Part shown: positions 1,317 to 19,917 of the stretch, one piece after another | Numbering within the stretch: position 1 is the first letter of the stretch | Layout: each line of letters opens with the position of its first letter | Source: a virus | Virus record (IMG/VR): IMGVR_UViG_3300030106_003370 | Span: 1-21,291 of that record | Length of the DNA: 21,291 nt | Reading direction: 5' to 3' (one strand) | Notes under the pieces: model-generated | Databases searched by the model: none | What the model was told of the DNA's origin: nothing | What the model saw: the letters and a program-made list of their open reading frames with translations, nothing else | Program-made: the position numbers and the translations under genes

Positions 1317-1572
1317 GGAAAGAGCGAGATATGAAGCCAAAAACAAAGGTAAAGATGGGAAAATTACCGATGTAAAAGGGGAAGATATAGATCACAAAAA
1401 GCCATTGAGTAAAGGTGGTACGAACAAAGCCTCTAATCTTAGAAGTGTATCTCCTAGTAAAAATAGGTCATTTAGCCGAAACCCAGATGGTAGTGTGAAA
1501 AAGAATGTGCCTAAAAAGAAAACAGCCAAGAAAAAAACGAGTAAAAAGAAAACAAGTAAAAAGAAGAAGTAA
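1231..1572 (+). CDS. HNH endonuclease, small, with Lys-rich tail
   Basis: Predicted HNH nuclease of 113 aa. The core is DIDHKKPLSKGG (D54, H55), then ASNLR (N69) and SPSKNRSF (N78), the usual beta-beta-alpha metal pattern of phage HNH proteins with Asn as the last residue. The N-terminus (MPYVNKKRPYKKEY) is typical of this phage subfamily. The C-terminus is a run of about 20 residues built from KKKTS/KKKTA units, coded by A-rich repeats at 1513-1569. The start lies inside the preceding gene in another frame; a Shine-Dalgarno GAGGT at 1216-1220, 10 bases upstream, supports it. The stop overlaps the next ATG by one base (TAATG). It could be a free-standing (homing-like) endonuclease or a DNA-processing enzyme; terminase-associated HNH proteins usually sit next to the terminase, which is not visible here. 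Confidence 0.85.
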   Translation: MPYVNKKRPYKKEYQQQKARGERKRRNARERARYEAKNKGKDGKITDVKGEDIDHKKPLSKGGTNKASNLRSVSPSKNRSFSRNPDGSVKKNVPKKKTAKKKTSKKKTSKKKK

Positions 1573-3128
1573 TGCAAGTAATTGATAACACACTAATCCT
1601 TCGTACAAGACATCCTACAAAAATACAGGATAGAATTCCTGATAGTGATATTGTTAGAAAAGACAATGATATCTACACTATGACAGTGGAGTGGGATTTA
1701 TATACTGCGCAACAGTTAGCAAGGTTGCGTATGAAAAACATCCCTTCTCCTATCATGCGAGATTATAACTGGTCAGGTGTCTATGCGCCGATGGATCACC
1801 AAAAAGTTACGGCTGAATTTTTAACCTTGAACCCAAGAGCTTTCTGTTTTAACGAACAAGGTACAGGCAAAACTGCGGCAGCGCTTTGGGCTTCTGATTA
1901 TTTACTACAACAAGAATATATACATAGAGTTCTAGTTATATGCCCGCTTTCTATAATGCACAGCGCATGGGGGGCTGATATGTTTGACTTTGCCCCGCAT
2001 AGGTCAATGGGAGTAGCTTATGGGGCGAAAGATAAACGGAAGGAGATAATAAAAAAAGACTACGAGTACATAATCATTAATTTTGATGGTATTGATGTAG
2101 TTAAAGAGACTATTGCAAAGGGTGGCTTTGATTTAATCATTATAGATGAAGCCAACGCCTACAAAAACTGTACTACTAAACGATGGAAGACAATCAACAG
2201 ATTAATTAAACCATCAACGTGGATGTGGATGATGACAGGAACCCCCGCCGCCCAATCTCCGTTAGACGCACATGGGTTAGCTAAGTTATGCGTACCTAAA
2301 AATGTCACTCCTTCTAAAACAAGATTTAAAGATTCTGTGATGTACCCTGTATCTAAATTTAAGTGGATGGCAAAACCAACCGCTCAAGCTACAGTGCATA
2401 AAACACTTCAACCTGCGATTCGGTTTACTAAAGAACAGTGTCTTGATTTACCGGAAGTTACCTATGTAGAACGGCAAGCACCTTTGACTTTACAGCAACA
2501 ACATTACTATAAAGAACTATGTCGGGAATTTGTTATTTGTGCGGGGGAAGAAAGTGTTACCTCTGCTAATGTTGCCGTAAATATGAGTAAACTATTACAG
2601 TTATCGGGGGGCGCAGTTTATTCAAACAACGGTAATGTTATAGAGTTTGATGTGTCCAACAGGCTAAAAGTAGTTAAAGAAGTTATAGATGAAGCGACTG
2701 CAAAAGTTTTAATCTTTGCTCCTTTCAAACACACCATAGCTATGTTGTATGAGTTTCTAAATAAGGCAAAAATATCAGCAGAATGTATAACAGGGGAAGT
2801 ATCGGTAAGTAAACGGACAAGGCTGTTTGATTTTTTTCAAACAACTTCAGAGCCTAGAGTTTTAATAATCCAACCACAAGCGGCGGCGCATGGGATCACT
2901 TTAACTGCCGCTAACACAATCATATGGTATTCCCCCATAACATCTACAGAAACATATTTACAAGCTAATGCAAGGATAGACCGCAAGGGTCAGAAAAATG
3001 CGATGACCATTGTAAATATAGATGGCTCCCCAATAGAACGTAAGCTATATAGACTGCTTTCTGGGCGTTTAGAAGCACACGTTAAACTTTTGGATTTATA
3101 TGAAGAAATAATTAAAGAAAGCACTTGA
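1572..3128 (+). CDS. SNF2-family DNA helicase/translocase
   Basis: SF2 ATPase of 518 aa, near normal length for stand-alone phage SNF2-like helicases. Motifs in order: Q-like region with MDHQK (about 75), Walker A QGTGKT (G97-T101), Walker B IIIDEAN (D192, E193; DEAN instead of DEAH), motif III MTGTPAA (221-227), the second RecA lobe with LIFAPFKHT, and motif VI QANARIDRKGQ (464-474, R468 and R471). It should use ATP to translocate on double-stranded DNA; in phages such proteins are linked to replication, recombination or protein displacement. Its start overlaps the HNH stop by one base, so it is translationally coupled. The stop codon lies inside the -35 box of a predicted promoter for the next gene. 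Confidence 0.9.
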   Translation: MQVIDNTLILRTRHPTKIQDRIPDSDIVRKDNDIYTMTVEWDLYTAQQLARLRMKNIPSPIMRDYNWSGVYAPMDHQKVTAEFLTLNPRAFCFNEQGTGKTAAALWASDYLLQQEYIHRVLVICPLSIMHSAWGADMFDFAPHRSMGVAYGAKDKRKEIIKKDYEYIIINFDGIDVVKETIAKGGFDLIIIDEANAYKNCTTKRWKTINRLIKPSTWMWMMTGTPAAQSPLDAHGLAKLCVPKNVTPSKTRFKDSVMYPVSKFKWMAKPTAQATVHKTLQPAIRFTKEQCLDLPEVTYVERQAPLTLQQQHYYKELCREFVICAGEESVTSANVAVNMSKLLQLSGGAVYSNNGNVIEFDVSNRLKVVKEVIDEATAKVLIFAPFKHTIAMLYEFLNKAKISAECITGEVSVSKRTRLFDFFQTTSEPRVLIIQPQAAAHGITLTAANTIIWYSPITSTETYLQANARIDRKGQKNAMTIVNIDGSPIERKLYRLLSGRLEAHVKLLDLYEEIIKEST

Positions 3129-4655: not shown

Positions 4656-7442
4656 ATGCCAACACTTTTACAGAAGATCCTTCCAGATAAAGGGCATTAT
4701 TGTACCGTTGGGTTAAAAGAAGATACTCCTCCACAACAAAGTTTTCATAGTACTTGGGAAGATGTAGAAAATGATGTTGCTGAATTATTAGAAGGGGGGT
4801 TTAACGTATATTTTGCGTGTGCTTCATTCCAAGAATCTGAAAAGAGGACACAAGATAACGCTGAATATATGAAGTCTTTTTGGCTTGACTTGGATTGTGG
4901 TGAAGGAAAACCCTATCCAAGTCAAACTGATGCTTTAGAAGCGTTATTATCTTTTTGCAAAACGGTTAAGTTACCTGCCCCTACTATTGTTAATAGTGGG
5001 AACGGTATTCATGTCTACTGGATATTAAAGAACGCCATTCATAAAGATGAATGGAATCCTATTGCAAAACATTTAAAGAATTTATGTAAGGAGAAGGGAC
5101 TTGAAGCAGATCCGGCGGTTACGGCAGATAGCGCACGAATTCTACGTGTGCCAGATACGCTTAATTATAAAACCGATCCCCCTGCTGAAGTATCAATACT
5201 GCACGAATCCTCTGAAGTTGATTTTGAAGAGGTTAAAACACTTATTGGAACCCCCCAAACCGATGAAGAGTATTTATTTGCGGAGGTTGATGCGCGAAAG
5301 AAAGATAACCAACAACATTCTTTTGCTAAAATTATACAGAAAACAATTAAAGGAAAAGGATGCGCCCAAGTAGAACACGCAATAATAAATCAAGACCAAA
5401 CTGATTATAATTTATGGCGGGCTATTCTATCTATAGCGGCTAATTGTAAAGACTCTGATATGGCAATCCATGCGGTTTCAGATAAACACCCTGATTATGA
5501 TCGCCAAAAGACAGAAGAAAAAGCGGTTGATTTAATTGGAAAACCTTATCGTTGTGACACAATAGATGAAACCAACATTAATGTTTGTGATGATTGTCCT
5601 CATTTTGGGAAAATAAGAAGTCCTATAGAGTTGGGGCAGCAGATTAAAGAAAATACAGATATTAATGAAAATACATTAATATCTAACAATCACCCAGCGC
5701 TTCCTTATCCTTTTTTTAGAGCTTTAAAGGGTGGAATATACAAAAAAGCTAGAAAACCTGAAGATGATGATATTCAAATATATCACAATGATCTGTATTT
5801 AATTAAGCGACTGCATGATAAAGAGAAAGGGGATATGGCTCTTGCGGAGTTACATCTTCCTAAAGATGGTACGCGGGAATTTTTAATCCCATTATCTAGC
5901 ATGACTAGCAAAGAAGAATTAAGGAAGATTCTTTCAGCACAGGGCGTTGTAATGATGCCTAAACAACTAGATAACATGATGGTGTATTTAATTGAGTGTA
6001 CAAAAAATCAACAGTCTCAGGATGAGGCAGAGATTATGAGAACACAATTTGGTTGGGTGGATAATGACAGTAAATTTATTCTTGGGGATAAAGAGATTAA
6101 TTGTTCTGCTGTCCGTTATTCTCCACCTTCTCCTAAGACAGAATCCATTTGTAAATGGCTTATTGCTAAAGGGGATATTGAAGAGTGGAAAAATGTTATT
6201 CAGGTTTACAACAAGCCTGATTTTGAACCCCATGCGTTTGGATTTTTTACCGCATTTGGTGCGCCACTGATAAAACATCTTGGATTTAACGGTGCGTTAA
6301 TAAATTTGATTAACTCATCATCAGGCACAGGGAAATCTACCGTGTTAAAGATGTGTAATAGCGTGTATGGACACCCTGACAAGCTACTGGCACAGGAAAC
6401 AGATACTTTTGCACATAAAATGTACCGATTAGGGGTAATGAATAATCTACCTTATACGGTAGATGAGATAACGAATATGCACCCTGAGTCTGTTAGCACA
6501 CTTTTATATAACGTATCACAGGGTTCTGGCCCCGGAAGGATGCAGTCTCAAAATAATATAGAGAGGAAGAACGATACTAATTGGAGTTTGATTGCGCTTG
6601 CAAGTTCTAATGCGTCTATGGCAGAAAAATTATCCCTGATTAAGCAATTTGCTGACGGGGAGATTATGCGGTTACTGGAGTATCGTATTGACCGTACTGA
6701 TAACATTAGTAAGTCTGACGCTTATAAATTGTTTGAAGGTGGGCTATTAAATAATTATGGGTTGGCAGGGCCAATTTATATTGAGTATTTAGTCAAGAAT
6801 CTACCAAAGGCAGTTAAATTAGCACAGGGTATACAGGAACATTTAGATGCTAAAGCTAGTTTAAACTCACGGGAAAGGTTTTGGTCTGCTGTTATATCCT
6901 GCAATATAGCAGGAGCGCAAATTGCGAACTACCTAAAGCTAATAGACCTAGACATCCCTAGAGTATTGGATTGGGCAAGTAATGAGCTTGTGGATACATT
7001 AAGACAACAAATTATAGAGCCTGAAATAGATTTTGTTGGGGTGCTAGGCGGATTCTTAAATGTGAATCGTGGGCATATTTTAGTGGTCAATGGCGCACAA
7101 GATGCCAGAAACTCAATTACTCCATTGCCTGTTGTAGAACCACGCTATGAACTAACCACTCGACTAGAGCCAGATACAGAAACTTTATATATTTTTAGTA
7201 AAGCGATTAGGAACTACTGTGCTAAAGAACAAATTATATTTAAAGATTTGGTAAGGGATTTAAAAGATAAAGGGATTCATCAAGGGACTGTACGCAAACG
7301 ACTAGCAAAAGGTACATCTATTGATAGCCCTCCTGTTGAAGCTCATATATTTAAACTGGAAGGTACTGATTTAATAGATACCGAATTTATGCAAACTTTA
7401 GGACAGGAAATTGATGATCCAGATTCACGGGATAACCTTTGA
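4656..7442 (+). CDS. Bifunctional primase-helicase (PrimPol-like plus SF3/DUF927-like ATPase)
   Basis: Replicative enzyme of 928 aa. The N-terminal part looks like an archaeo-eukaryotic primase/RepB-like domain: WLDLDCG (metal-binding D78, D80), NSGNGIHVYW (113-122, with the Ser/Gly-x-His motif) and RILRVPDTLN (161-170). A Cys pair in CDDCPHFG near residue 310 may end the linker domain. The C-terminal half carries Walker A GTGKST (557-562), a Walker B-like VDE (602-604) and a sensor-like LIALASSN, the layout of DUF927/SF3-type helicases. It probably primes and unwinds DNA at the phage fork. It ends with a helical, possibly winged-helix region (VRKRLAKG). The Shine-Dalgarno is weak (GAGAAGG overlapping the previous stop), so coupling to the HTH gene is likely. 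The stop is followed at once by a terminator-like hairpin. Confidence 0.86.
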   Translation: MPTLLQKILPDKGHYCTVGLKEDTPPQQSFHSTWEDVENDVAELLEGGFNVYFACASFQESEKRTQDNAEYMKSFWLDLDCGEGKPYPSQTDALEALLSFCKTVKLPAPTIVNSGNGIHVYWILKNAIHKDEWNPIAKHLKNLCKEKGLEADPAVTADSARILRVPDTLNYKTDPPAEVSILHESSEVDFEEVKTLIGTPQTDEEYLFAEVDARKKDNQQHSFAKIIQKTIKGKGCAQVEHAIINQDQTDYNLWRAILSIAANCKDSDMAIHAVSDKHPDYDRQKTEEKAVDLIGKPYRCDTIDETNINVCDDCPHFGKIRSPIELGQQIKENTDINENTLISNNHPALPYPFFRALKGGIYKKARKPEDDDIQIYHNDLYLIKRLHDKEKGDMALAELHLPKDGTREFLIPLSSMTSKEELRKILSAQGVVMMPKQLDNMMVYLIECTKNQQSQDEAEIMRTQFGWVDNDSKFILGDKEINCSAVRYSPPSPKTESICKWLIAKGDIEEWKNVIQVYNKPDFEPHAFGFFTAFGAPLIKHLGFNGALINLINSSSGTGKSTVLKMCNSVYGHPDKLLAQETDTFAHKMYRLGVMNNLPYTVDEITNMHPESVSTLLYNVSQGSGPGRMQSQNNIERKNDTNWSLIALASSNASMAEKLSLIKQFADGEIMRLLEYRIDRTDNISKSDAYKLFEGGLLNNYGLAGPIYIEYLVKNLPKAVKLAQGIQEHLDAKASLNSRERFWSAVISCNIAGAQIANYLKLIDLDIPRVLDWASNELVDTLRQQIIEPEIDFVGVLGGFLNVNRGHILVVNGAQDARNSITPLPVVEPRYELTTRLEPDTETLYIFSKAIRNYCAKEQIIFKDLVRDLKDKGIHQGTVRKRLAKGTSIDSPPVEAHIFKLEGTDLIDTEFMQTLGQEIDDPDSRDNL

Positions 7443-7792: not shown

Positions 7793-7970
7793 CCATGACA
7801 GGGGTACACGTTGCTCCTACTTCCGGCTGATTGTATTTCTGCGATTGCCAATAATTCTGCCTACGCAAACTTCTTGCAAAATACTGACAACGATCAATAG
7901 ATTCCCAGTAAAACTTATCGGGCTGCGGTTGCCCGTCTAAAAATGTTGTCAACATAAATACAAGAAGCAT
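7761..7970 (-). CDS. Small protein with hydrophobic N-terminus, possible secreted or membrane protein
   Basis: A 69-aa protein. The first 11 residues (MLLVFMLTTFL) are hydrophobic but lack a leading positive charge, so a short signal or anchor is possible. The rest is polar with two cysteines (C28 in RCQYFARSL, C55 in ATCTPV) that could pair in the periplasm. The DRCxYFAxxL pattern resembles small unassigned proteins of environmental phages. The start overlaps the upstream stop by one base (TAATG), indicating translational coupling to the 163-aa membrane protein. It is the last gene of the leftward block, and its 3' end overlaps the convergent 59-aa ORF by 32 bases. A lysis-related or superinfection role is speculative. 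Confidence 0.65.
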   Translation of the reverse strand: MLLVFMLTTFLDGQPQPDKFYWESIDRCQYFARSLRRQNYWQSQKYNQPEVGATCTPVMVNPDRVKVWR

Positions 7971-8461
7971 TACTCACTACTACCTCCTTGTTGAAATAAC
8001 CAAACAAAACCTATAATAAACCCCAAGAAAAATATTACAAAAAACATTATTGCTATAAAATCAGCAATCTTTTGTTTAAGCTCTTGTCGAGCATGGATTT
8101 GTTTCTTACGTTCAGCACGAATTTCTTTTTCCATCTGTACTAATTCAGTCCAAGCATCTTTGCCCCAACTGTACGTTATTAACTCATATAAAGTTTTACG
8201 TTGTTCGGCCATTTTGCGTTTAGCAATAAGTGCATCAAACGCTTCTTTTTCTACAGACTTAGCAGCAGTAACTTTTTGAAATATACTAGGATTCTTAGCT
8301 CTGTTTTCAGCCGCATTAATATCCGACACACACTCAAACCAACGCGATATATGACCCATAGCTGATTCTAATTCACGCCCAGAATTTACAGCTTTAGTTA
8401 CACCATTTATACATTTGCCAGCAAGGGTAATAGCTGCGGTAATGGTTAATGGATCGGGCAT
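7970..8461 (-). CDS. Phage protein with C-terminal membrane segment, unknown function
   Basis: A 163-aa protein. It begins MPDPLTITAAITLAGKCING, followed by a long charged helical region (about 60-132, rich in Lys, Glu and Arg) and a single strong hydrophobic segment at about 134-156 (IAIMFFVIFFLGFIIGFVW) near the C-terminus. A tail-anchored topology with the coiled part in the cytoplasm is likely. GAGGT lies 5 bases before the ATG. It follows the giant virion protein by 19 bases and is coupled to the 69-aa gene. Proteins of this shape occur after ejection-protein genes in marine phages without known function; a holin or spanin-like role is possible but not shown. Confidence 0.75.
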   Translation of the reverse strand: MPDPLTITAAITLAGKCINGVTKAVNSGRELESAMGHISRWFECVSDINAAENRAKNPSIFQKVTAAKSVEKEAFDALIAKRKMAEQRKTLYELITYSWGKDAWTELVQMEKEIRAERKKQIHARQELKQKIADFIAIMFFVIFFLGFIIGFVWLFQQGGSSE

Positions 8462-8480: not shown

Positions 8481-11400
8481 TTAAAATTGCTGTAAATGCT
8501 GATCCATATGTTTTAAGTCTAAAAAGTTTTTGAATGGTAATTCTTTACCTAGTACTTCATATGTTGCATCACTAAGAGATATACCAGAAAAACTTAACTC
8601 CATAGCCTTCATTCTTGCATCAGCAGATCTTCTTAAATCATAGGAACTTATAGCCCAAGTGCCATATTTAGCTAATTTACGCGCATTATATTCAGGAATA
8701 TCTACATCACGAATTTCTCTCATTCTTTTTGTATCACCATTTATTTGTGCTAGGGTGTACTCTTGGAAAATTTTTCTTTTCTGAAAAGCCATATCCCTTT
8801 CAACCCCTTTCATTAAATTAAAGGTTCTTTTTAATAATGCCGTTTCTGCACCAGCAAAACCTATTGCTTTATTAAATGCTGTCCAATCAGATATATTGGT
8901 ATTTACAAGATCTCCTTTTCTATTTACAGCGCCTTTATTTACAAGATCATATGCTTGTATTAAATTTTTAAACGCGGAAGGCAAAGACAAAGTAACAGCC
9001 GTTTTTGTGTCCATTTCGCCATTCCATATTTTAAGTATGTTCTCCGCAGGAGTTTTTATCACACTAAAAGCTGGCCCTAGATAAGTTTCTAAAGCATAAA
9101 GAGGGTATCCTATTTGGCTTATTCTGTAGTCATTATCTCGTATCAAAAGTCCCCGCCAAGTAACTCTATGTGCAATATCCATGTTCATTAAATTAGGAAG
9201 CCATCCATAAGCATAATCAGCACCTAAAAATCGAACAGCTTTCATTTCAAGTTCTTCTGCGGGGTCATCTTCCCATACAAGATCATGAAGCATTTCTATT
9301 AACCCATATACAGGAACCCCCATAACTCCTGCAACACTAAAAAGACTTGCATTAATTGCGGCGTATTGCCCTATAGCTACAGCTCTTGATTCTTTATCAA
9401 GAGGGGCAATAGCTTGGCGCAAAAGTTTATATTGTAGATAAAATTGGGAGAGGGGAAATTTCTTAAAAGTTCCAATAACTTTCCCCCAACTATCCCTGAA
9501 CCAAGTTGGGCCGACTTCTGTTATTGCAGGGCCGTTTACTGTTTCTACAAAATCTATTGCTTCTTGCATAGCTTCTCTAGTCGCGGTTTTAGAATCTTTA
9601 CCCTGTTTTAAAAGTCGGTCTTTTTCTAATTTAAAAGCTGCTATTAAAGTTATCTCTCTATTACCACGTTCTGAATTTTGAAACAGCCAGTTTAAAGCGT
9701 ACTCTGCCCTTGACCAAGTTCCCGTAGGAGATCCTACAGGATCACTTATAGAATCAGGCAATATACTTAACGCTTTTTGCGAGTATTTTACATCTGTTAT
9801 TTCCTGCCCTGTAGCAATACGAACCGCTTGTTGATCGACTGCCATATCATATAATTCTTTTAATTCCCCTTTTGCATCTTTAAATGCTGTCCAATCTGCT
9901 AGAGGAATAGCAATATCTGTATCAGGAATCCCAAGGTCTAGATTAGTATTGTCATCCTGACCACCCATAAAATAATTTGCATAAGATTCCATTAATACTT
10001 TTGAAGCTTTTACAGGCCCGTATTTAACAGCCATCATAGGAAAAGCAATAATAGGTATTTGAGAAAAGTTAATGGCTGAAGCGGATATATTACCCATTAA
10101 GTACCATTGATACCCAAGGTATGACATATTCGCAGCCCACGGTGCTGGGAAAGGGTTGTATATATTTTTTCTATCGGCGTTTAGCCTATCCATTACCCTT
10201 TCGCTTAATGCAGTATACCCCGGAGTTTCATCTTCTACGCCTGTGGCATCTTTTGTTGCGGCTTGTTGTGCTTTTTTCGCCGTTTCTTGTATTACCCCAA
10301 ACGCATCATCTATTCCTTTTTGACTATTCATTAATGCTTGTTCACTAGCTAATTTATAGCCAACATCTGCAAAATCTGCCAATACATTTTTTCTAAATCC
10401 GGGGGTTTTCTTTCGGACTTTAAACTGTTGTTTTACAGAATCACTGGGGAACATAGATAGATAAGTCTCTTGAACAGACTCAATAACACCATCTAGTGCA
10501 TGGGGGGTATCATCGGGTATACCTTTATCTTGTTTATCTTTTGATCTTAAATTCCTTAATTGTTTTATTACTTTATTAAACTCAGCAGTCATCGCAGGGT
10601 TGTCTTGATCTTTTAGACTATCTGTTTGCCTATTATAAATTGTTGAAAAATTAAACGCTCCACGCTTTTGACGTTCTTTTATCGCCATTTGAGCGGCACT
10701 TCTAGTTGGAAAGGCTTCTTTCACCCTACCTTCAGTTCCTTCTATTTCGTAATCAATCCAATAATCTCCTGACCTGTATAAAGGTAAGTAAGGATTTATT
10801 CTAGATCTTTGTAATCTTAATGTATTTACAAGATCGCTCTCTCGACCTGCGCCTCCTTGAATAGCAAGTTCTACCATTTTATCTATGTGCGCTTGGGCAT
10901 ACTTCCTATAAGTATTGACCATATTTCTATAAAGAAGTTGTAATTCTGGGGGTAGTTTTTTATAGCGTTTGAATAACTCAGACTGCACAACTGCGGGGTT
11001 GTTTACATCTGTTAAATCTATTTCATCAATAGTTGAGTCATACGCAATATCATTAAACTCTTCAGCGTATTTAGCGTGTTTTTGTAGAATTTTTTGTCCG
11101 TCATAAATAGATTTAGCTATTCTTTTTCTAAGCTCATCTATTTGGCTTTTACGTTTTTTTAATTGTTTATCTAAGGTAAGTATATTGTCAGCTAATCGGT
11201 TAATAACTTTTCCTGTTTCTCCTTTTGCTCTTTCAGCTTTATATTTTAATGAATCTGCTAGCTGAAAATAGGAAAGTGTTTTAGTAACAAAACTACTGGA
11301 GAATTTTTCTGATCTTTCTATAACCTCAATCGTTTTACCTATGGCAGGTTTTGTAAAATCAGGAGATACTTTTAGTGCAGTATCCCTAGCGCCCCATATA

Positions 11401-14400
11401 AATTTATCAAAAATACGTTCTGCTTTAAGAGGGTCTGAGGTTTGCTCTATTACAGTTTCATTAGTTCGTGCAGAATTACCACGTATAACATCACCTGCCG
11501 CACCATAAGCTAAATCAACAAGATCTTGCGCAGTAAGGGTAACTGGTAAGCCAAGCCTTCTCATCGCATTTTTTATACCCGCAAAAACACGTTTCATAAA
11601 AGTAACAACAGGTTTTTCGTAAGAAGGTATTTCATTAGGTTTAAGGTCAGGTGTATAACCATCATTTACTGCTTCTTCTATAAAATAAGCTAGTAATTCA
11701 TCGTCAGGTTTAGCCGTACCTACTTCTTGTGCAAACTCAACTCTTGCGGCAGCTTTATTAGCAATGATTACTTCAGGAGATGAATTTTTTCCAGCAGGGT
11801 TCTGTTTAGCCCACTGTTTTATTTTCTTAATATAAAAATTATAGTTTCCAGAACCAACCAGATTTTTCATTCCTACATGACTACCTACCTCATGCAGAAA
11901 AACACTTAACTCATCGCCTTCCTGAATATTATCGGTAAAGAGGTAAATAGTGCCGTCTTTGGTTACAGTCCCTTTTGTGTATACCTGCGGGGCATCTTCT
12001 TCTAACCCTGCTTCTTTTGGATTTTTTACAAATTTTATATTTGCTTTTTCTAATGCTGCTTCAGTCGTATTAAATGCTTCAGTAATTGCATCTTTTATCT
12101 TCTTAACCGTAGTTGGTTTAGTGGGTACAACAGGACTTACTGAATTTTCTTCTTCAATTATGTCATTGCGTAAATCAAGTTTAACACTCCCATCAATTTG
12201 CGTAGAATCACGAAACGCTATTATAGGTATGTATTCTTCTTTCTCTAATATAGCATTTCGTTCTTCTCTAAGATTATCTAAAGTTTTTTGGAGAGCTTCA
12301 TCTTCCCTATTACTTAATATTGCTTTAGTCTTGCCAATTTCACCGTTAATATCTGTAAGTGTTTTGACATCCTGCTTCAGATTTGGAAAGTCTTTAGATT
12401 GTTGATAACTTGCAAGTGTATCATTGGTAATAGCTTGAGCTTCTAAATCTGCTTTATCCTGTTCTAAAGATTGTATTTGTTCATTTAAATCCGCTTCGGT
12501 ATTTTGAGTTTCTAAGTTAACATCTTGCCTAGCAATTTCTAGGCTTTCTTGCTCCCCCGAAAGTTTTTTAAGATCTGTAACTACCTCTTGCGTTGCATCA
12601 ATATCAGAATCTGGGTCAGCAATTTTGGGTTTCTTACTTTTTTCAAAGGCTTTTTTTATTGCGTTAAATCTTTGATCAGACGTTGACAGCGTTTGTAACT
12701 GAAGTTTTTTTAGTTCCTCAATACGTTTATCTATCGCTTCTATTGATTGACTAGGAGGATTAGTAACAGCTTCTGCATACTGACTAGCTTGTTTAGCTTG
12801 TAAATTTATTAATTTTTGTTGTTCTGGAGTTATTTGAGCATCACGTTTAGCTCTGGAATTTAAACCATTGATTAATGCTTGGTTTGCGGCCTCTGCGTAT
12901 TCAGGATTTTTTTCTACAAAAAATTGTAATCGTAATTTAGCCTGTGCTATAGCTTGGGTTCGTGTTCCCTGTTTTGTAACATCAAAAGGTACGTTATCTA
13001 TTGAAGAAGCTGAATCTACATCACCTATAAGCTCTTTAAATTCCCGATCAAGCCGTTGTTTTGTAGTTTTTTGTATAGTTTTAAGCGGTCTTTGTTTTAC
13101 ACCTTCTGGTACATCAACTACTTTTGTACCTTTTCTTGTGCCTGTTTGCCGTCTTTGTTTTGCTATTGCCTCTTTGTCAGCTTGTTCTTTTTTGTATTTA
13201 GCTTTTTTAAGGTCTTTTATGTCTTGTTTTGTCCAACCTGCTTCAGAAGAAGGTTTAATAACTCCTTTTGTTTTAGGCCTTCTTAATGCAGTATCGTCAT
13301 TTTTCTGATTTTTAAAATCGTCCAAAGTTAACGCAATTTCTCCCTCTTCGGCAGTCATGGCACGTTCAGCTAATTCTAACCGTTTAGCAGGAGGAGAGGG
13401 CGCTATCTCAATACCCTCGGATTCCAGACTATCCAATAAGGCTTTTTTACTTGTGTAATCTTTATCTTCTTTTGGAGGGTTAGCTATTATTTTCTCAATA
13501 ACTTTTCTACGTTCTTTTGGTCGTGAAGAACCTTTAGGTGTTGCTCTCTTTTCAACCATTAAACTATCATCAATAACTTTTTCTTGTTCGGGAGAAAGTT
13601 CAAAACCTAGTCGGTTTTTAATATATGCAAGAGAACCTTGTTTAGATTTTACCGCTTTAGCTAACTCTTGTTGTTCAGCCTCTATCTCAGCCCTGACTTC
13701 AGCTAATGCTGCATCTTCTTTTCTTTTTTGTTGTTGGATTTCTGCTTGTGCCGCAACAGCTTGTCTAGCTTTTCTAAGCTCTCCCCTCGTAAAAGTCTCG
13801 CCTCCATACTCTACTTCTTCTGCATCACGAGCCGCAATTTCATCTTTTCTAGCTTGTTCAGCTTTTTTTAAAGCGGCTAGGGTTTCAGGTCTTACCTCTT
13901 CCCTAGCCTGTTTTAGTCTGTCTAGATAGGCTTCTACAGCAGGAGAATCTGTACCATATTCGCTTTTTATCTCCCCTATCGTGCTAGGAATGACCGTACC
14001 GTAGTACCCAGCTCCCGCAGATCGAGCTTTTTGAATATCCCGTTCTGCTAATTTAACTGCCTTTGCTTTTGCCTCTTTTTCAGCTTTTATTGTAGCTATT
14101 GTTTCCTGTAGTTTTCCTACTTTCTTTATAAAATCTTGTACTGCTTTTGCTGTTTTAGTTTCAGGTGCTTTTTTAGTTTCAGGTGCTTTTTTAGTTTGAT
14201 CTCTTTTTGCTTTAGCAATTTTTTGTAAATCAGAAACTTTTAATTTGTTTATGTTTGCGCCATCTGGCAAAAATTCAGCAATATCTTTATCGTCTAGATT
14301 CTTTAGATCTTTTCTATTGGCCCTGTTATTCCATGCTTCTTCTACTTTAGGTGTATTAAACCCGAACCCTGCTGTATCTGCATCTGTTTCTGTTTCTTCT

Positions 14401-17237
14401 TTTTTAACATCTGGTTTAGTTTTTGGTTTGCCTTTTTTTGCTTCTATAGCATTTATAACCTGTTGAGCTTTAACAGGGTCTTTTTTAATTGCATTGTCAA
14501 CAGAGGTGCGTAAACTTTCAAAGCCCCCCCTTTCAGCATCCATAAGTGTTGCTAATTCATCTTTTTGGTCATAACTTAGTTTCCCAGCGCGTTCAATAAG
14601 TGCATCTGCATCTGCATCTGTTTCTATTTCGTCTATAAGATTATTAAATCTAGGTTCGTCATTTAAAATAGCATCTACTAATTGGCCTTTAGCTTTAGGA
14701 ATTCCTGTAATTTCTTCTAATTTATTTTTTTGTTCCTCAGTTAAAGCATCATATCGTCCTACAGCATTTCGTTCAGTTTTTGTAGTATCCGGTTTAGTTT
14801 TTGGTTTGCCTTTTTTTGCTTCTTTTGTAGCACCCGGTTTAGTTTTTGGTTTGCCTTGTTTTGCTTGATAGTTATCAAAATTTTTATCTGCTATTTTTTG
14901 AGCTTCTTCTCTATAAGCAGCTTCAGCTTCTGGCCCAAGGTTTCTGCCTATAGTTAAAGCCATATCATCTCTTTCTCTATCAAATATTGCTAACTCACCT
15001 CTAGCTTTCATATCTTGCCGAGCTTTTTTTCTAGCAACTGTGATTGGATCGTCAGCATCTTGTATTGCTTGATCTAATGGATCGTCAGTATCTTTTGCTT
15101 CTTGATCTAATAAAGTATCAACAACATCTTCGGTTGTTGCTTTAATGGGTTCAGGGGCTTTTACAGAACCTTGTAGATAAGGGTTATTGGCAATAGCGTG
15201 GTCTAAACGAGCATTAATGTCAGGGGAAAGACTCTCATCTGCAAATGTCGTATTTAATAGTCTTTTAATTTCAGCACGTTGTTCTTCATCTAATAAAGAT
15301 AGGGATTTATTTTTATTTGCGTATGCAAAAAGTTCTTTAATCCTATCTGCTATTTCTCCTGTTTGTGGAGCTTTTTTGCCTCCTAATATAGCGGTTATTA
15401 ACGCGGGTAGTTCACTTGCTTCATCAATAGCTATTTTTTGTTCAACTTCTTTTTCAACTCTTTCAGCTTGCTCAACAGATGTAAACCCACCGGGGATTTC
15501 TTTGCGATATTGTTCAGGAATTTTTTCCCATCTTGTATATAAATCTTTTTCTGCTAATTTTTTCTTTGCGTCATCTAACTGCTTACGAACTTTCCGTATG
15601 TTTTCAGCGTCTGCTTGAGTAGCTGGATCTTCTAACCTAGCTTCCAGTTCAGCAACTACCCCTTGTAATTGTTCGACCTCAAGATTAACTTGTGCTGATA
15701 CTCCCTCCGGCCCTTCTTCTTCAGCAATATCGGCAAGGGTTCTACCTTCTTCATCTAAAGGACGGCCTTCTTCTTCTCGGCGTAATTGTTCCCTTGGGGA
15801 CGAAAGCGTATTTAACTCTGCTTGTGTTTCTTCTTTTTGCTTTTGTAGATCTATTATCGTTTCTGGGTCAGTTTCATTCGCTATCTGGTTTTCTATATCT
15901 GTTAACTTACTGTCTAATTTTCTTACTTCTGGATCTATCTGTTCTTGATACTCAAGGTCTTCCAGATATTTTCTTTCTTCATCAGCTTCCCGCAACGCTT
16001 TTTTTGCTCTGGAACTTTCATAGGCACTTGAAAGCCCCCCAAACGGGCCTCCCCCTACAGTTCCCTGCACTATACTTTCTACAATCCGATCCATTTCGTC
16101 AGAACTAAGTGCTTCCCAGTTGTCCATTACAATACGTTCTGCAAGAATGCTAATTGCTTCTTGCCCGCCTTCAGTAACCCCTTCTAATGCACCTGCTTTT
16201 CCGGTTCCCCATGCCAACCCTCTAAGCACAGAAGGTTTAGCCCCACTTCTTTCTAGTACTTTTTTAACAACTTCCTGTCGTAAAAGCGGGTTTTGAGATA
16301 TAGCTTTACTAACTTGGTAGGGCAGTATGCTGTCTAAAGAAGCGGCTACAGCACCTGCAAGTAACGATGTTCCGGGAGCAAAAGTCCCAGTTCTTTCATA
16401 TATGTTATTAAAGACTTCAGGGGCATTAAGTGCGTAACTTCCCATAAAAGTAGAGGCATACAAGGCTTTTTTAGCAGCTTTCTCGCCTACTTGTTTAATA
16501 AGTTTTTGCCCTGACACATTGTTTCTAAAGTCTATTTTATCCTTATCAGCACCTTTATCCTTAAGCTCCTTTACTCGTTTATCAACTAGTTTTTTTGCTT
16601 GTTTTTCAGCCGTTTTTTTAGCAACCGCACTACCTATACCACCCGTACCTATAATGCCTAGTAAATTAGGTACTTGTTCTCCAACAACCTGTAAACCAAA
16701 TTTAACCGCATCTCCTACACCTGCTACTTCTTTATAGGATTGAAATTCCGCAGGATTGTTTGCAGCAATCGCTTCTTCTGTTGCCATATTTTCATTAATC
16801 TGTTCTGTAGCATAATCCCGTAACGCTTCGGCGGCATTATCCGCCCCTACTGTTTCTGCTATGGAAGCTATAGTTGAAGCACCTAATGCAGGGAGAAGAT
16901 CTGCTGCGGTAGATGAAAGCCGTGTAGCCCCCCTCCTAATCCCCCGTACTCCTGAAGAAAGGAACCCATAATCAGGCCTAGTTGGATCTCTTTCTTCATC
17001 AAAATCAGTAGGGTCAACAGCAGGGCCAGCAGCAGGGCCAACAGCAGGGTCAACAGCAGGGCCAGTAACCAAATTAGGTTGTGTAGAAAAAGGCCTTGGT
17101 GGAGGAGAAAGCCTTGGTGGAGGAGAAGGCCTTAACTCGTTTATAGCTCTTTCTAAAACTTCATTTTGAGAAACACCTTCAGGTGCAGTTACCCGATGCC
17201 TTCTTCCTGTTGGGTCTTGTACTATATATACAGGCAT
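8481..17237 (-). CDS. Giant polyvalent virion protein with metallopeptidase-like domain (2918 aa)
   Basis: Probable internal virion protein ejected with the DNA. Layout: a short N-terminal beta-type motif (MPVYIVQDPTGRRHRVTAPEG...); a Pro-rich and AVDP-repeat linker (36-78); an Ala/Gly-rich region ending in EGVTEGGQEAI (about 350-360); then long coiled coils and Lys-rich linkers (about 400-1700) with repeated GKPKTKP. A metallopeptidase-like domain follows: FLHEVGSH (H1782, E1783, H1787; HExxxH spacing) and DELLAYFIEE with E1847 as possible third ligand, matching zincin-like domains of phage polyvalent proteins. The C-terminal third resembles large polyvalent protein associated regions (YLPLYRSGDYW, NISASAINFSQIP), with hydrophobic stretches near 2361-2410 and 2618-2650 that could interact with membrane. 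It follows smaller virion-type proteins, the place of T7 gp16. Protease activity is inferred. Confidence 0.85.
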   Translation of the reverse strand: MPVYIVQDPTGRRHRVTAPEGVSQNEVLERAINELRPSPPPRLSPPPRPFSTQPNLVTGPAVDPAVGPAAGPAVDPTDFDEERDPTRPDYGFLSSGVRGIRRGATRLSSTAADLLPALGASTIASIAETVGADNAAEALRDYATEQINENMATEEAIAANNPAEFQSYKEVAGVGDAVKFGLQVVGEQVPNLLGIIGTGGIGSAVAKKTAEKQAKKLVDKRVKELKDKGADKDKIDFRNNVSGQKLIKQVGEKAAKKALYASTFMGSYALNAPEVFNNIYERTGTFAPGTSLLAGAVAASLDSILPYQVSKAISQNPLLRQEVVKKVLERSGAKPSVLRGLAWGTGKAGALEGVTEGGQEAISILAERIVMDNWEALSSDEMDRIVESIVQGTVGGGPFGGLSSAYESSRAKKALREADEERKYLEDLEYQEQIDPEVRKLDSKLTDIENQIANETDPETIIDLQKQKEETQAELNTLSSPREQLRREEEGRPLDEEGRTLADIAEEEGPEGVSAQVNLEVEQLQGVVAELEARLEDPATQADAENIRKVRKQLDDAKKKLAEKDLYTRWEKIPEQYRKEIPGGFTSVEQAERVEKEVEQKIAIDEASELPALITAILGGKKAPQTGEIADRIKELFAYANKNKSLSLLDEEQRAEIKRLLNTTFADESLSPDINARLDHAIANNPYLQGSVKAPEPIKATTEDVVDTLLDQEAKDTDDPLDQAIQDADDPITVARKKARQDMKARGELAIFDRERDDMALTIGRNLGPEAEAAYREEAQKIADKNFDNYQAKQGKPKTKPGATKEAKKGKPKTKPDTTKTERNAVGRYDALTEEQKNKLEEITGIPKAKGQLVDAILNDEPRFNNLIDEIETDADADALIERAGKLSYDQKDELATLMDAERGGFESLRTSVDNAIKKDPVKAQQVINAIEAKKGKPKTKPDVKKEETETDADTAGFGFNTPKVEEAWNNRANRKDLKNLDDKDIAEFLPDGANINKLKVSDLQKIAKAKRDQTKKAPETKKAPETKTAKAVQDFIKKVGKLQETIATIKAEKEAKAKAVKLAERDIQKARSAGAGYYGTVIPSTIGEIKSEYGTDSPAVEAYLDRLKQAREEVRPETLAALKKAEQARKDEIAARDAEEVEYGGETFTRGELRKARQAVAAQAEIQQQKRKEDAALAEVRAEIEAEQQELAKAVKSKQGSLAYIKNRLGFELSPEQEKVIDDSLMVEKRATPKGSSRPKERRKVIEKIIANPPKEDKDYTSKKALLDSLESEGIEIAPSPPAKRLELAERAMTAEEGEIALTLDDFKNQKNDDTALRRPKTKGVIKPSSEAGWTKQDIKDLKKAKYKKEQADKEAIAKQRRQTGTRKGTKVVDVPEGVKQRPLKTIQKTTKQRLDREFKELIGDVDSASSIDNVPFDVTKQGTRTQAIAQAKLRLQFFVEKNPEYAEAANQALINGLNSRAKRDAQITPEQQKLINLQAKQASQYAEAVTNPPSQSIEAIDKRIEELKKLQLQTLSTSDQRFNAIKKAFEKSKKPKIADPDSDIDATQEVVTDLKKLSGEQESLEIARQDVNLETQNTEADLNEQIQSLEQDKADLEAQAITNDTLASYQQSKDFPNLKQDVKTLTDINGEIGKTKAILSNREDEALQKTLDNLREERNAILEKEEYIPIIAFRDSTQIDGSVKLDLRNDIIEEENSVSPVVPTKPTTVKKIKDAITEAFNTTEAALEKANIKFVKNPKEAGLEEDAPQVYTKGTVTKDGTIYLFTDNIQEGDELSVFLHEVGSHVGMKNLVGSGNYNFYIKKIKQWAKQNPAGKNSSPEVIIANKAAARVEFAQEVGTAKPDDELLAYFIEEAVNDGYTPDLKPNEIPSYEKPVVTFMKRVFAGIKNAMRRLGLPVTLTAQDLVDLAYGAAGDVIRGNSARTNETVIEQTSDPLKAERIFDKFIWGARDTALKVSPDFTKPAIGKTIEVIERSEKFSSSFVTKTLSYFQLADSLKYKAERAKGETGKVINRLADNILTLDKQLKKRKSQIDELRKRIAKSIYDGQKILQKHAKYAEEFNDIAYDSTIDEIDLTDVNNPAVVQSELFKRYKKLPPELQLLYRNMVNTYRKYAQAHIDKMVELAIQGGAGRESDLVNTLRLQRSRINPYLPLYRSGDYWIDYEIEGTEGRVKEAFPTRSAAQMAIKERQKRGAFNFSTIYNRQTDSLKDQDNPAMTAEFNKVIKQLRNLRSKDKQDKGIPDDTPHALDGVIESVQETYLSMFPSDSVKQQFKVRKKTPGFRKNVLADFADVGYKLASEQALMNSQKGIDDAFGVIQETAKKAQQAATKDATGVEDETPGYTALSERVMDRLNADRKNIYNPFPAPWAANMSYLGYQWYLMGNISASAINFSQIPIIAFPMMAVKYGPVKASKVLMESYANYFMGGQDDNTNLDLGIPDTDIAIPLADWTAFKDAKGELKELYDMAVDQQAVRIATGQEITDVKYSQKALSILPDSISDPVGSPTGTWSRAEYALNWLFQNSERGNREITLIAAFKLEKDRLLKQGKDSKTATREAMQEAIDFVETVNGPAITEVGPTWFRDSWGKVIGTFKKFPLSQFYLQYKLLRQAIAPLDKESRAVAIGQYAAINASLFSVAGVMGVPVYGLIEMLHDLVWEDDPAEELEMKAVRFLGADYAYGWLPNLMNMDIAHRVTWRGLLIRDNDYRISQIGYPLYALETYLGPAFSVIKTPAENILKIWNGEMDTKTAVTLSLPSAFKNLIQAYDLVNKGAVNRKGDLVNTNISDWTAFNKAIGFAGAETALLKRTFNLMKGVERDMAFQKRKIFQEYTLAQINGDTKRMREIRDVDIPEYNARKLAKYGTWAISSYDLRRSADARMKAMELSFSGISLSDATYEVLGKELPFKNFLDLKHMDQHLQQF
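14153..14197 (-). repeat. 18-bp tandem repeat in giant gene
   Basis: TTTTAGTTTCAGGTGCTT (14153-14170) is repeated exactly at 14171-14188 and begun again at 14189. On the coding strand it gives KKAPET units in a flexible Lys-rich linker. Confidence 0.85.
14413..14857 (-). repeat. Dispersed 22-33 bp exact repeats in giant gene
   Basis: The same 22 bases occur at 14413-14434, 14791-14812 and 14836-14857; the first two copies stay identical for 33 bases (14413-14445 and 14791-14823). They encode GKPKTKP, mostly as AKKGKPKTKP, in linkers at about residues 794, 808 and 934. Exact DNA identity suggests recent duplication or ongoing recombination within the gene. Confidence 0.85.
17012..17059 (-). 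repeat. 12-bp tandem repeat, 4 copies
   Basis: GGTCAACAGCAG and close variants (GGCCAGCAGCAG, GGCCAACAGCAG) occur four times, coding for AVDP, AAGP, AVGP and AVDP tetrapeptides in the N-terminal linker of the giant protein. Confidence 0.85.
17093..17128 (-). repeat. 18-bp tandem repeat, 2 copies
   Basis: GCCTTGGTGGAGGAGAAA is followed by the same unit ending in G, coding for the RPSPPPRLSPPPRPF Pro-rich stretch near residues 36-50 of the giant protein. Confidence 0.85.
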
Positions 17238-17247
17238 TAGTTAGCAC

Positions 17248-18900
17248 CTAGTAGGAAGCAAGTCCTACAAGACCGCCTTTTTTATAACTACCGCCGTATA
17301 AGCCTGTTTGTTGCTGAAATGTTTTAAAATATTGATTAACCATAGCGTCATAATTCCCAACATTCATACTTTCTAGGGCATCAGCCATTCTTTTTGCTGA
17401 ATAAGAAAGAGCAAGGTTTTGCATTGCAACATTCGATTGAAGTCTTTCATAAAGTTTTTGTCTAGCTTTTGTACTTTTTTCTTTGTCCCCACGTATAGCT
17501 TGTTCAAAGAGAGGAGCAGCACCTGAATCCATTTTAACAAATTGGGCTTTTAATGATTCTAATGTTTCTGGAGATGCCTCCATTAAAAATGGCTCAACGT
17601 ATCGTTGTTTATGTGTTCCCGCCAAACCCTCCAATGTTTCTACATACCCATAAATATCCTTATCAGTAATTGATCCCTGATTTTTTGTTAATATATCTGC
17701 AATACTACTAGCATGGATTTTTGCTAAATCAGTGCTTCGCCCAATTTCTGCGGTATATATACTAGCCTTTACACTAGCGAGAGCTGCAGCTGCGGTTGTT
17801 GCACTACTTCTGTCTGTATTTCTTTCATTTGCAATACGATCTTTTGCTTTTTCAACCGCATTAAATAAATTTTCGTTAAGTTTTTCTCGCCGTTCATTTA
17901 CTGTTTTTTGTGCGGCATCTGCATCCCCTCGTTTTAATTGGTTTTGTGCTTGCTTAATTTTGTCTATATCCCTATCAATTATTCTTTTAGCGGAATCTAT
18001 GTCATCTAATTCCTGACTATAGCTTTTAAACGCTGGTGACATCCCTTTTAAAAATCTTGCTCCTGTACTATAACCTTGTTGCGTAAGATCTTTATCTAAA
18101 ACTGCCCCTGCTAAATCAAAAAATACCTGAGATCCAGCTCGTTTTCTTGCTCCGGCATAACCCTCTTTTTCTGCTTCAAGTGATTCGAGTCCTTTTTTAT
18201 ACAAATTTGGGTCATATCCTGCGGCTTTACGAGCCGCTTCCATAGCCGCTAGCTCCCCTCCTTCTCCTGTAGCTTTCATTGGGCCTAAATCTAAAATACC
18301 GCTAACCTCTTTTTTAATACCTTGTGGGTCAACTTTTCTTTTCTCTGGAAGCGTTGCGAATTTTTCTAGGTTTTTAATGGACTCTTGTGACTCAAACTCA
18401 TCTACAGGTATTACAGAAAACCCATCTTTTGTTACTGGCCCTGCTGCTAATAACCTATTTCTATCAAATTCAGAAGTCGTTGGATCATATGCAAGACCAG
18501 TAGACATAAAGTTAGACGGGAGTTCATCCTGCATAAAGGTATTAGGGTCAAACCCTGCCATTAAAAGATCCCTATAATCATCTTCGCCAAGAACTAAACC
18601 TGTATTTGCATACCCGATAATGCCACCTTCCCTAAAATTTTGTTCTGCTAGAGCTAAAGACTCTACCCCCCTGTTAGCCGATTCATTTCTTACATTATCT
18701 GCTACTGTAGGGGCAGGGGGTTGCATAGCTTGCTGCATTGCTTTTTGTGTATTTCTATCTTTTAGTTCTGTTAATGCTAATGAAGAATACGCATCATTTT
18801 GGCGAGATATTTCATCAAGCAGCTCATCAGGCATACGCTTCATCTCTTTATGTATTTGAGCAATATTTTTACCTGTTGTTGAATAACTATATCCTGCCAT
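17248..18900 (-). CDS. Probable internal virion/ejection protein, 550 aa
   Basis: No catalytic motif is seen. It begins MAGYSYSTTGKNIAQIHKEMKRMPDELL and has a helical N-terminal part, a FREGGIIGYANTG motif at about 88-100, a long Ala/Lys/Glu-rich helical middle (about 210-420) and a C-terminal YKKGGLVGLASY. The GG(I/L)(I/V) glycine motifs at both ends are common in virion proteins of marine podovirus-like phages. It lies 10 bases upstream of the giant protein, in the position expected of a T7 gp15-like ejection protein. It is preceded by GAGGT 8 bases before the ATG. Assignment rests on style and context only. Confidence 0.7.
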   Translation of the reverse strand: MAGYSYSTTGKNIAQIHKEMKRMPDELLDEISRQNDAYSSLALTELKDRNTQKAMQQAMQPPAPTVADNVRNESANRGVESLALAEQNFREGGIIGYANTGLVLGEDDYRDLLMAGFDPNTFMQDELPSNFMSTGLAYDPTTSEFDRNRLLAAGPVTKDGFSVIPVDEFESQESIKNLEKFATLPEKRKVDPQGIKKEVSGILDLGPMKATGEGGELAAMEAARKAAGYDPNLYKKGLESLEAEKEGYAGARKRAGSQVFFDLAGAVLDKDLTQQGYSTGARFLKGMSPAFKSYSQELDDIDSAKRIIDRDIDKIKQAQNQLKRGDADAAQKTVNERREKLNENLFNAVEKAKDRIANERNTDRSSATTAAAALASVKASIYTAEIGRSTDLAKIHASSIADILTKNQGSITDKDIYGYVETLEGLAGTHKQRYVEPFLMEASPETLESLKAQFVKMDSGAAPLFEQAIRGDKEKSTKARQKLYERLQSNVAMQNLALSYSAKRMADALESMNVGNYDAMVNQYFKTFQQQTGLYGGSYKKGGLVGLASY

Positions 18901-18912
18901 TGCTAGATACCT

Positions 18913-19917
18913 CTATGATCTAAATTGATTATACGCACCTAACCCGCCTAGACCCGCAGCTAACATTTCTGCGCCACCACTAGGGGTACGTCCATAGGTA
19001 ATTTCAGAAGACTCCAATCCAGCGGGCAACCCACGAACAATATTACTATACCAGCCCAGTTGCTCTCTTGGAAAATCCCTCTGCCTAAGAAAATCTGCAT
19101 AACGGGTATCGAATATTTTTTGTTGCCGCTGTTGCTGCTGCGCTCCTGCTCTTTGTTGAGCAGCCAATCTTTGTAAATCTGATTGTTGTTGTGTAAGCCC
19201 TAATCCAGTTAACCCTCTAGCTGAAGCTAATTGAGCTTGTCTGTCCCGTTCAGCTTGCGTCATCATAGCAGCCCGATCCCGTTCAGCTTGCGTCATCATA
19301 GCAACCCGATCCCGTTCTTCTGCGGTCATTCTAGCCTGTCTATCCCGCTCAAACTGTTGTTGTGCCATTCTAAACGCATCTTGGCTACCGCGAGCTTGTA
19401 AATCACCTACCGTATCTGTTAACCCTCGCATACGCATAGCGTCCATAACGGCTTGTCGAGATCCTCCAGCACTTCCTCGTCCTGCTGCGCCTAACTGGGA
19501 TATACCAGCTTGCCGCTGTGATTCTTCCTGTGCTTTACGAATTGCAATATCAGTAACGGCTTGTTGGTAAGGACTCATATATTGTTTAGCTTGTGCTTCA
19601 CCAAAAGTACCTGCTTGCGTAGTACCTGTGTCAACTTTCCCGCTAACATCTAATTGTCCTGCTGACCCTGCAATCTGATTATAAAGCCCTCCAGCCTGTC
19701 CAAATTGATCTGGACGTTTTAATTGCCCAATCTGCTTGAACGCTTTTTCTTGCATAGGGTCGAATCCAGCGACCCGTTGCCCTTTATATGGTTGATATTC
19801 TTCCCTTGAAACAGCTTGCGCTCTACTTGCAACATCCGTTACATAAGGCTGCAACCATTCAGGAATCGTTTCATTTTTAACAACTTGTGTTGTTTCTTTT
19901 GGGCCACCACCGCTCAT
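18913..19917 (-). CDS. Probable virion-internal structural protein, 334 aa, Gln/Arg-rich
   Basis: Starts MSGGGPKETTQVVKNETIPEWLQPYV and continues with the block YMSPYQQAVTDIAIRKAQEE and SQLGAAGRGSAGGSRQAV, a recognisable pattern of structural proteins in many marine podo- and siphovirus genomes. The middle is a long helix rich in Gln, Arg and Ala, including MTQAERDRAAM units coded by a 33-bp repeat, then a Gln-rich stretch (AGAQQQQRQQ). The C-terminus has DTRYADFLRQRDFPREQLGWYSNIVRG-type sequence. It sits between the gp13-like protein and the 550-aa protein, the place of a T7 gp14-like ejection protein. GGAG precedes the ATG. Confidence 0.72.
   Translation of the reverse strand: MSGGGPKETTQVVKNETIPEWLQPYVTDVASRAQAVSREEYQPYKGQRVAGFDPMQEKAFKQIGQLKRPDQFGQAGGLYNQIAGSAGQLDVSGKVDTGTTQAGTFGEAQAKQYMSPYQQAVTDIAIRKAQEESQRQAGISQLGAAGRGSAGGSRQAVMDAMRMRGLTDTVGDLQARGSQDAFRMAQQQFERDRQARMTAEERDRVAMMTQAERDRAAMMTQAERDRQAQLASARGLTGLGLTQQQSDLQRLAAQQRAGAQQQQRQQKIFDTRYADFLRQRDFPREQLGWYSNIVRGLPAGLESSEITYGRTPSGGAEMLAAGLGGLGAYNQFRS
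19245..19343 (-). repeat. 33-bp tandem repeat, 2 near-exact copies plus a degenerate third
   Basis: Copies at 19245-19277 and 19278-19310 differ at one base (GCAGCC versus GCAACC). The unit at 19311-19343 is recognisable but diverged. Each encodes an 11-residue segment of the MTQAERDRxAM type in the helical part of the 334-aa protein, so copy change keeps frame and three heptad-like turns. Confidence 0.88.

Follow-up and report, generated by a model that had tools for sequence, protein, structure and literature searches.

The window analysed here, a virus record of 21,291 bases, encodes a giant polyvalent, ejection-type protein of 2918 amino acids whose best conserved part is a zincin-type domain with an HExxxH motif. 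This domain is homologous to domains with the canonical HExxH motif in giant proteins of isolated phages, and it holds a regular place in the module order of related loci. The giant is a very large phage protein, probably one that virions carry and introduce into the host along with their DNA. In the reading developed below, it would be an ejected polyvalent virion protein whose zincin processes itself or partner ejection proteins, a proposal whose chances we judge to be about even.

Layout of the giant protein

The open reading frame (positions 8481 to 17237) starts with ATG, comprises 2918 codons and fills about 41% of the window; it lies on the minus strand, as do all its parts described below. 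An initial annotation had placed a gene filling about 40% of the window here without giving its strand, and had described about 1300 residues as coiled coil and linkers and a C-terminal polyvalent region with hydrophobic stretches; the gene and both regions are recovered in the present analysis. The architecture is common to 92 related loci, and relatives share the order of an N-terminal module, a long variable linker, the zincin, an optional ART-like domain and a tail-700 module. In most complete relatives, the zincin sits between the flexible linker and the tail-700 module.

The N-terminal virion-type module (residues 110 to 414, positions 15996 to 16910) is conserved and rich in alanine and glycine. 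A family profile matches it in most complete relatives and also in POI1126 gp30 and JC1 gp69. The linker (residues 415 to 1704, positions 12126 to 15995), recognized by composition and conservation, is poorly conserved; charged residues make up mostly 34-44% of the stretch from about 415 to 1705, with 23-28% in two 100-residue blocks. A match to ABC_tran_CTD at residues 520-572 (E 8.5e-4, under its cut-off) falls in this charged region and was taken as an effect of composition.

The C-terminal polyvalent region corresponds to a tail-700/PLxRFG module (residues 2149 to 2889, positions 8571 to 10793), which matches NF032893 over the whole model (E 4.6e-69; 233.6 bits against an NCBI cut-off of 100; positions 2-676 of 681). 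It contains one hydrophobic peak, at about residues 2620-2651 (positions 9285 to 9380), the most hydrophobic segment of the protein. The predicted structure of this module is of modest quality (pLDDT 69); with it, Foldseek found viral matches to many phage giant proteins and a weaker one to a Roseobacter phage CRP-4 protein annotated as 'Internal virion protein D' (E 1.5e-4, query TM 0.36). A PDB search with the same model returned helix matches only.

Of 17 full-length members of the family, four have a Pfam match to LPD38, and LPD23, LPD39, ART-PolyVal and ParB each occur in a single member; in the window protein Pfam detects neither an ART nor an LPD domain. A PHROG named DarB-like antirestriction is matched by 11 of 17 family members, with the window protein under the threshold. 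In about half of the relatives (L002, L003, L006-L009 and others), an ART-like domain (WHGT...GEGxQAFGWGxY) directly follows the zincin. It is absent from the window protein and its closest relatives, and this slot therefore seems to have been gained and lost.

The zincin-type domain and its HExxH homologues

The zincin-type domain spans residues 1709 to 1915 (positions 11493 to 12113) and is supported by conservation, a structural model and profile alignment. In the relatives compared, identity is about 40% across some 180 residues of the domain, against 10-20% in most other regions. Its motif, H1782-E-V-G-S-H1787 (positions 11877 to 11894), and the downstream stretch E1847-L-L-A-Y-F-I-E-E1855 (positions 11673 to 11699), preceded by D1846, lie exactly where the initial annotation had put H1782, E1783, H1787 and its DELLAYFIEE segment. 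On sequence composition, the motif exceeds chance expectation: HExxxH arose in 7 of 2000 shuffles of the giant protein, which has just 11 histidines.

A search with residues 1690-1930 yielded 8 viral loci, and a profile search returned 197 related stretches, of which 80 were kept, together with three contigs from bacterial genomes. From 92 database loci, 48 non-redundant representative domains were taken to measure conservation. The four fixed residues of HExGxH are invariant in all 48, as are the downstream E, A and Y of E-x-x-A-Y (E1847, A1850 and Y1851); this count carries some bias, since the motif itself served as one of two scan patterns. More than 12 loci, recovered through a separate distal pattern, V[DN][LM]AYGAA, have HEVGVH, HEFGDH, HEVGEH or HEVGGH, all outside the motif pattern, and HExxxH is kept in every case.

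Pfam and NCBIfam searches left the domain unnamed, with no Pfam family at cut-off. MPTase-PolyVal (PF18818) matched one of the 48 members with an E of 0.038, short of family level, and searching PDB sequences with the zincin profile returned chance helical matches only. The M49 family (dipeptidyl peptidase III) has the HExxxH spacing in common with the window protein (PMC5708649); PF03571 is not among the Pfam matches listed.

The homologous domain carries the canonical HExxH in giants from isolated phages, reading HEAFH in JC1 gp69 and POI1126 and HELFH in ZX1. Aligned with hhalign, the HExxxH and HExxH domain profiles match with a probability of 98.9% (E 2.6e-17, 159 columns); the alignment places the extra residue inside the motif and pairs ExxAY in both. 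Because the homologous domain has the canonical form, HExxxH is best read as a zinc motif that is one residue longer. The relationship extends beyond the motif, as JC1, ZX1 and POI1126 still score 19-23 bits (JC1 22.9) once it is masked, against a shuffle maximum of 3.4. In a midpoint-rooted tree, for which treekit issued a long-branch warning, the four HExxH and the 48 HExxxH sequences fall on opposite sides of a fully supported split. Scanning for the HExxH versions by themselves brought in a single further viral contig.

An AlphaFold model of the domain (pLDDT 82.9, pTM 0.74) predicts helices at model residues 22-33 and 37-42, followed by three strands (45-48, 67-69 and 75-78) and then a helix (87-105) that holds HEVGSH 1782-1787. 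E1847 (model residue 158), a candidate third zinc ligand, lies on a second, C-terminal helix at 155-169. This predicted order is the one described for polyvalent zincins (PMC5512222). A Foldseek search of the model against the PDB gave nothing with E below 0.001. In a structural comparison with the PDB, lethal-factor-type zincins stood at the top (Certhrax and lethal factor are among the matches named), with PPEP-1 further down. Since all of these matches are weak (Z 3.9 or less), they are only supportive, and the absence of other zincins from the list excludes nothing. HExxxH is the active-site motif of working M49 zinc peptidases (PMC5708649), so the longer spacing is compatible with catalysis.

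Gene neighbourhood and known phage systems

Upstream of the giant lie a gene for a 550-aa protein (positions 17248 to 18900, minus strand), which has the same place in relatives, and a 334-aa homologue of the 'DNA ejection protein' phrog_4287 (positions 18913 to 19917, minus strand; E 4.8e-18). The position of the giant after this homologue is conserved among relatives. Downstream, a converging gene encodes a DUF927 protein of 928 aa (positions 4656 to 7442, plus strand), and it is found in 74 of the 75 loci with enough sequence. The initial interpretation is partly supported. Its claim of a zincin-type domain within a polyvalent ejection-type giant is borne out by the HExxH homology, the predicted secondary-structure order, the LPD, ART and ParB domains of relatives and the place after the ejection-protein homologue.

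Several other genes and records were noted in passing. Between the DUF927 gene and the giant, a 163-aa gene (7970-8461, minus strand) has a hydrophobic segment near its C-terminus and matches phrog_32327, of unknown function. At 3-443 and 391-1101, inspection by eye suggests a likely DNA adenine methylase and a likely PD-(D/E)XK-type nuclease, and Pfam identifies a SNF2 helicase at 1572-3128; these are separate genes in the window, whereas in Bcep22-like phages the giant itself is annotated with helicase and methylase regions. One family member, without the usual converging DUF927 gene, lies in a large bacterial chromosome contig of 716 kb (Aromatoleum anaerobium, L091) and is possibly part of a prophage. 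Synechococcus phage MinM2 has the same gene run, with an ejection-like homologue, a protein of about 530 aa and a 2803-aa giant, in which the family profile did not detect the zincin. Three cyanophage records (OQ594354, OL906435 and PP438419) have different names and hosts and an identical length of 65,014; they share one match that differs only in position and strand, and they may be one phage.

The initial annotation also held that the giant takes the place of T7 gp16. A T7-like origin is unsupported, as the T7-type portal/connector PF12236 was above cut-off in none of 20 related records, some of them fragments, and the window has no head genes; among relatives that include head genes, the nearest carries a terminase of phrog_38 and a portal of phrog_1216. 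Unlike T7 gp16, the window protein has no transglycosylase match (Pfam found none in it or in 16 relatives), and it is more than twice as long. What stands of the comparison is the ejection-protein context and the likeness of the C-terminal module to CRP-4 Internal virion protein D, which makes a functional parallel to T7 gp16 plausible.

Further parallels are the DarB-like/PLxRFG giants of Bcep22-like and Lastavirus podophages (JC1 gp69, POI1126 gp30 and ZX1), which have the zincin-homologous domain in a similar place and are likewise encoded by the last large gene of the virion module. A tail-700 C-terminus like that of the window protein occurs in POI1126, ZX1 and douglas 12A4, whereas the match in JC1 gp69 is marginal (E 0.04). 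The JC1, POI1126 and ZX1 giants differ in having HExxH rather than HExxxH and in their length of 3867-4841 aa, and Bcep22-like giants are annotated with transglycosylase, helicase and methylase regions that the window protein lacks. The MPTase domains described by Iyer et al. resemble the present case in that the zincin motif belongs to a giant multidomain protein of a phage, whose relatives carry LPD- or ART-type domains, and their HEXXXH set shares both the spacing and the glutamate on the second helix (PMC5512222). The window protein differs from these polyvalent zincins in having no Pfam-detectable ART or LPD domain.

Possible role in genome delivery

CsCl-purified virions of JC1 yielded 51 unique peptides of gp69, which has the homologous domain (PMC9144972), and by analogy with this homologue the window protein is likely packaged in the virion. 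The giant would be made late and packed in the head alongside the products of the genes upstream of it, to enter the host before the DNA or together with it. Residues from about 1709 to 1915 would act as a zincin metallopeptidase, with H1782, H1787 and probably E1847 forming the zinc site and E1783 serving as general base. The most likely job of such an enzyme would be processing in cis or among the ejection proteins: during assembly or ejection the giant chain may be cut, with the flexible linker as the probable site, which would release its modules from one another.

Processing is favoured by the invariance of the motif and ExxAY, the HExxH homology, the element order of the model and the lethal-factor and PPEP zincins in the structural list, as well as by the position between linker and tail-700, the upstream ejection-protein homologue and the presence of JC1 gp69 in virions. 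Iyer et al. also proposed autoprocessing of polyvalent zincins, citing the processed P1 DdrB (PMC5512222). Against it count the packaging of the zincin-bearing N4 virion RNA polymerase in unprocessed form (PMC5512222), the low Z scores against solved zincins and the lack of Pfam recognition; moreover, JC1 gp69 as a whole is a different, larger protein with the HExxH form.

Alternatively, the zincin could be an injected effector whose substrates are host proteins of the periplasm or cytoplasm, such as defence proteins, and not those of the phage. Iyer et al. name it as an alternative (PMC5512222), and the ART-like domain next to the zincin in many relatives, together with their ART-PolyVal, ParB and LPD domains, fits effector cargo. 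However, the zincin is conserved across the lineage, whose loci were found through it, while the adjoining ART comes and goes; a housekeeping role therefore fits better than a fast-changing effector, and we consider host-directed cleavage possible but doubtful. A structural or packaging module that has kept the zincin fold and perhaps zinc without proteolysis is unlikely. Encapsidation of the N4 virion RNA polymerase requires its MPTase region, and that protein stays unprocessed (PMC5512222), but a zincin with a purely structural role could do without the base, and all catalytic positions, including E1783, are invariant in 48 diverse sequences; HExxxH is, moreover, a working active site in M49 peptidases (PMC5708649). 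Coincidence of the motif in a helical region with no zincin fold is highly improbable. In its favour are the missing Pfam family, the lack of any PDB match under an E of 0.001 and a structural Z that reaches only 3.9; against it are an invariant motif, profile-level homology with ExxAY aligned and predicted elements in the correct order.

Polyvalent zincins, including a set with HEXXXH, and the idea of autoprocessing were published by Iyer et al. in 2017 (PMC5512222), and the window protein is a well-supported further example. The present analysis adds that the domain is tied to HExxH counterparts in cultured podophages and that the lineage keeps a fixed architecture and gene neighbourhood; it also corrects the comparison with T7. 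More tentatively, the zincin with its longer motif could be an active protease throughout this lineage, fixed as the conserved core of the ejected giant. It would cleave the ejection apparatus as the genome is delivered, while effector domains beside it, such as the ART, are swapped or dropped; HExxxH would then be a distinct catalytic subtype, derived once from HExxH or ancestral to it.

No domain is more common in phage polyvalent proteins than the zincin, yet there have been hardly any tests of what it targets, be it the protein itself, a partner or the host. This lineage offers a clean case, in which a single conserved zincin sits in a defined neighbourhood and has matched homologues of both the HExxH and the HExxxH form. 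It also provides a likely annotation for Pfam-less proteins in about 200 viral contigs.
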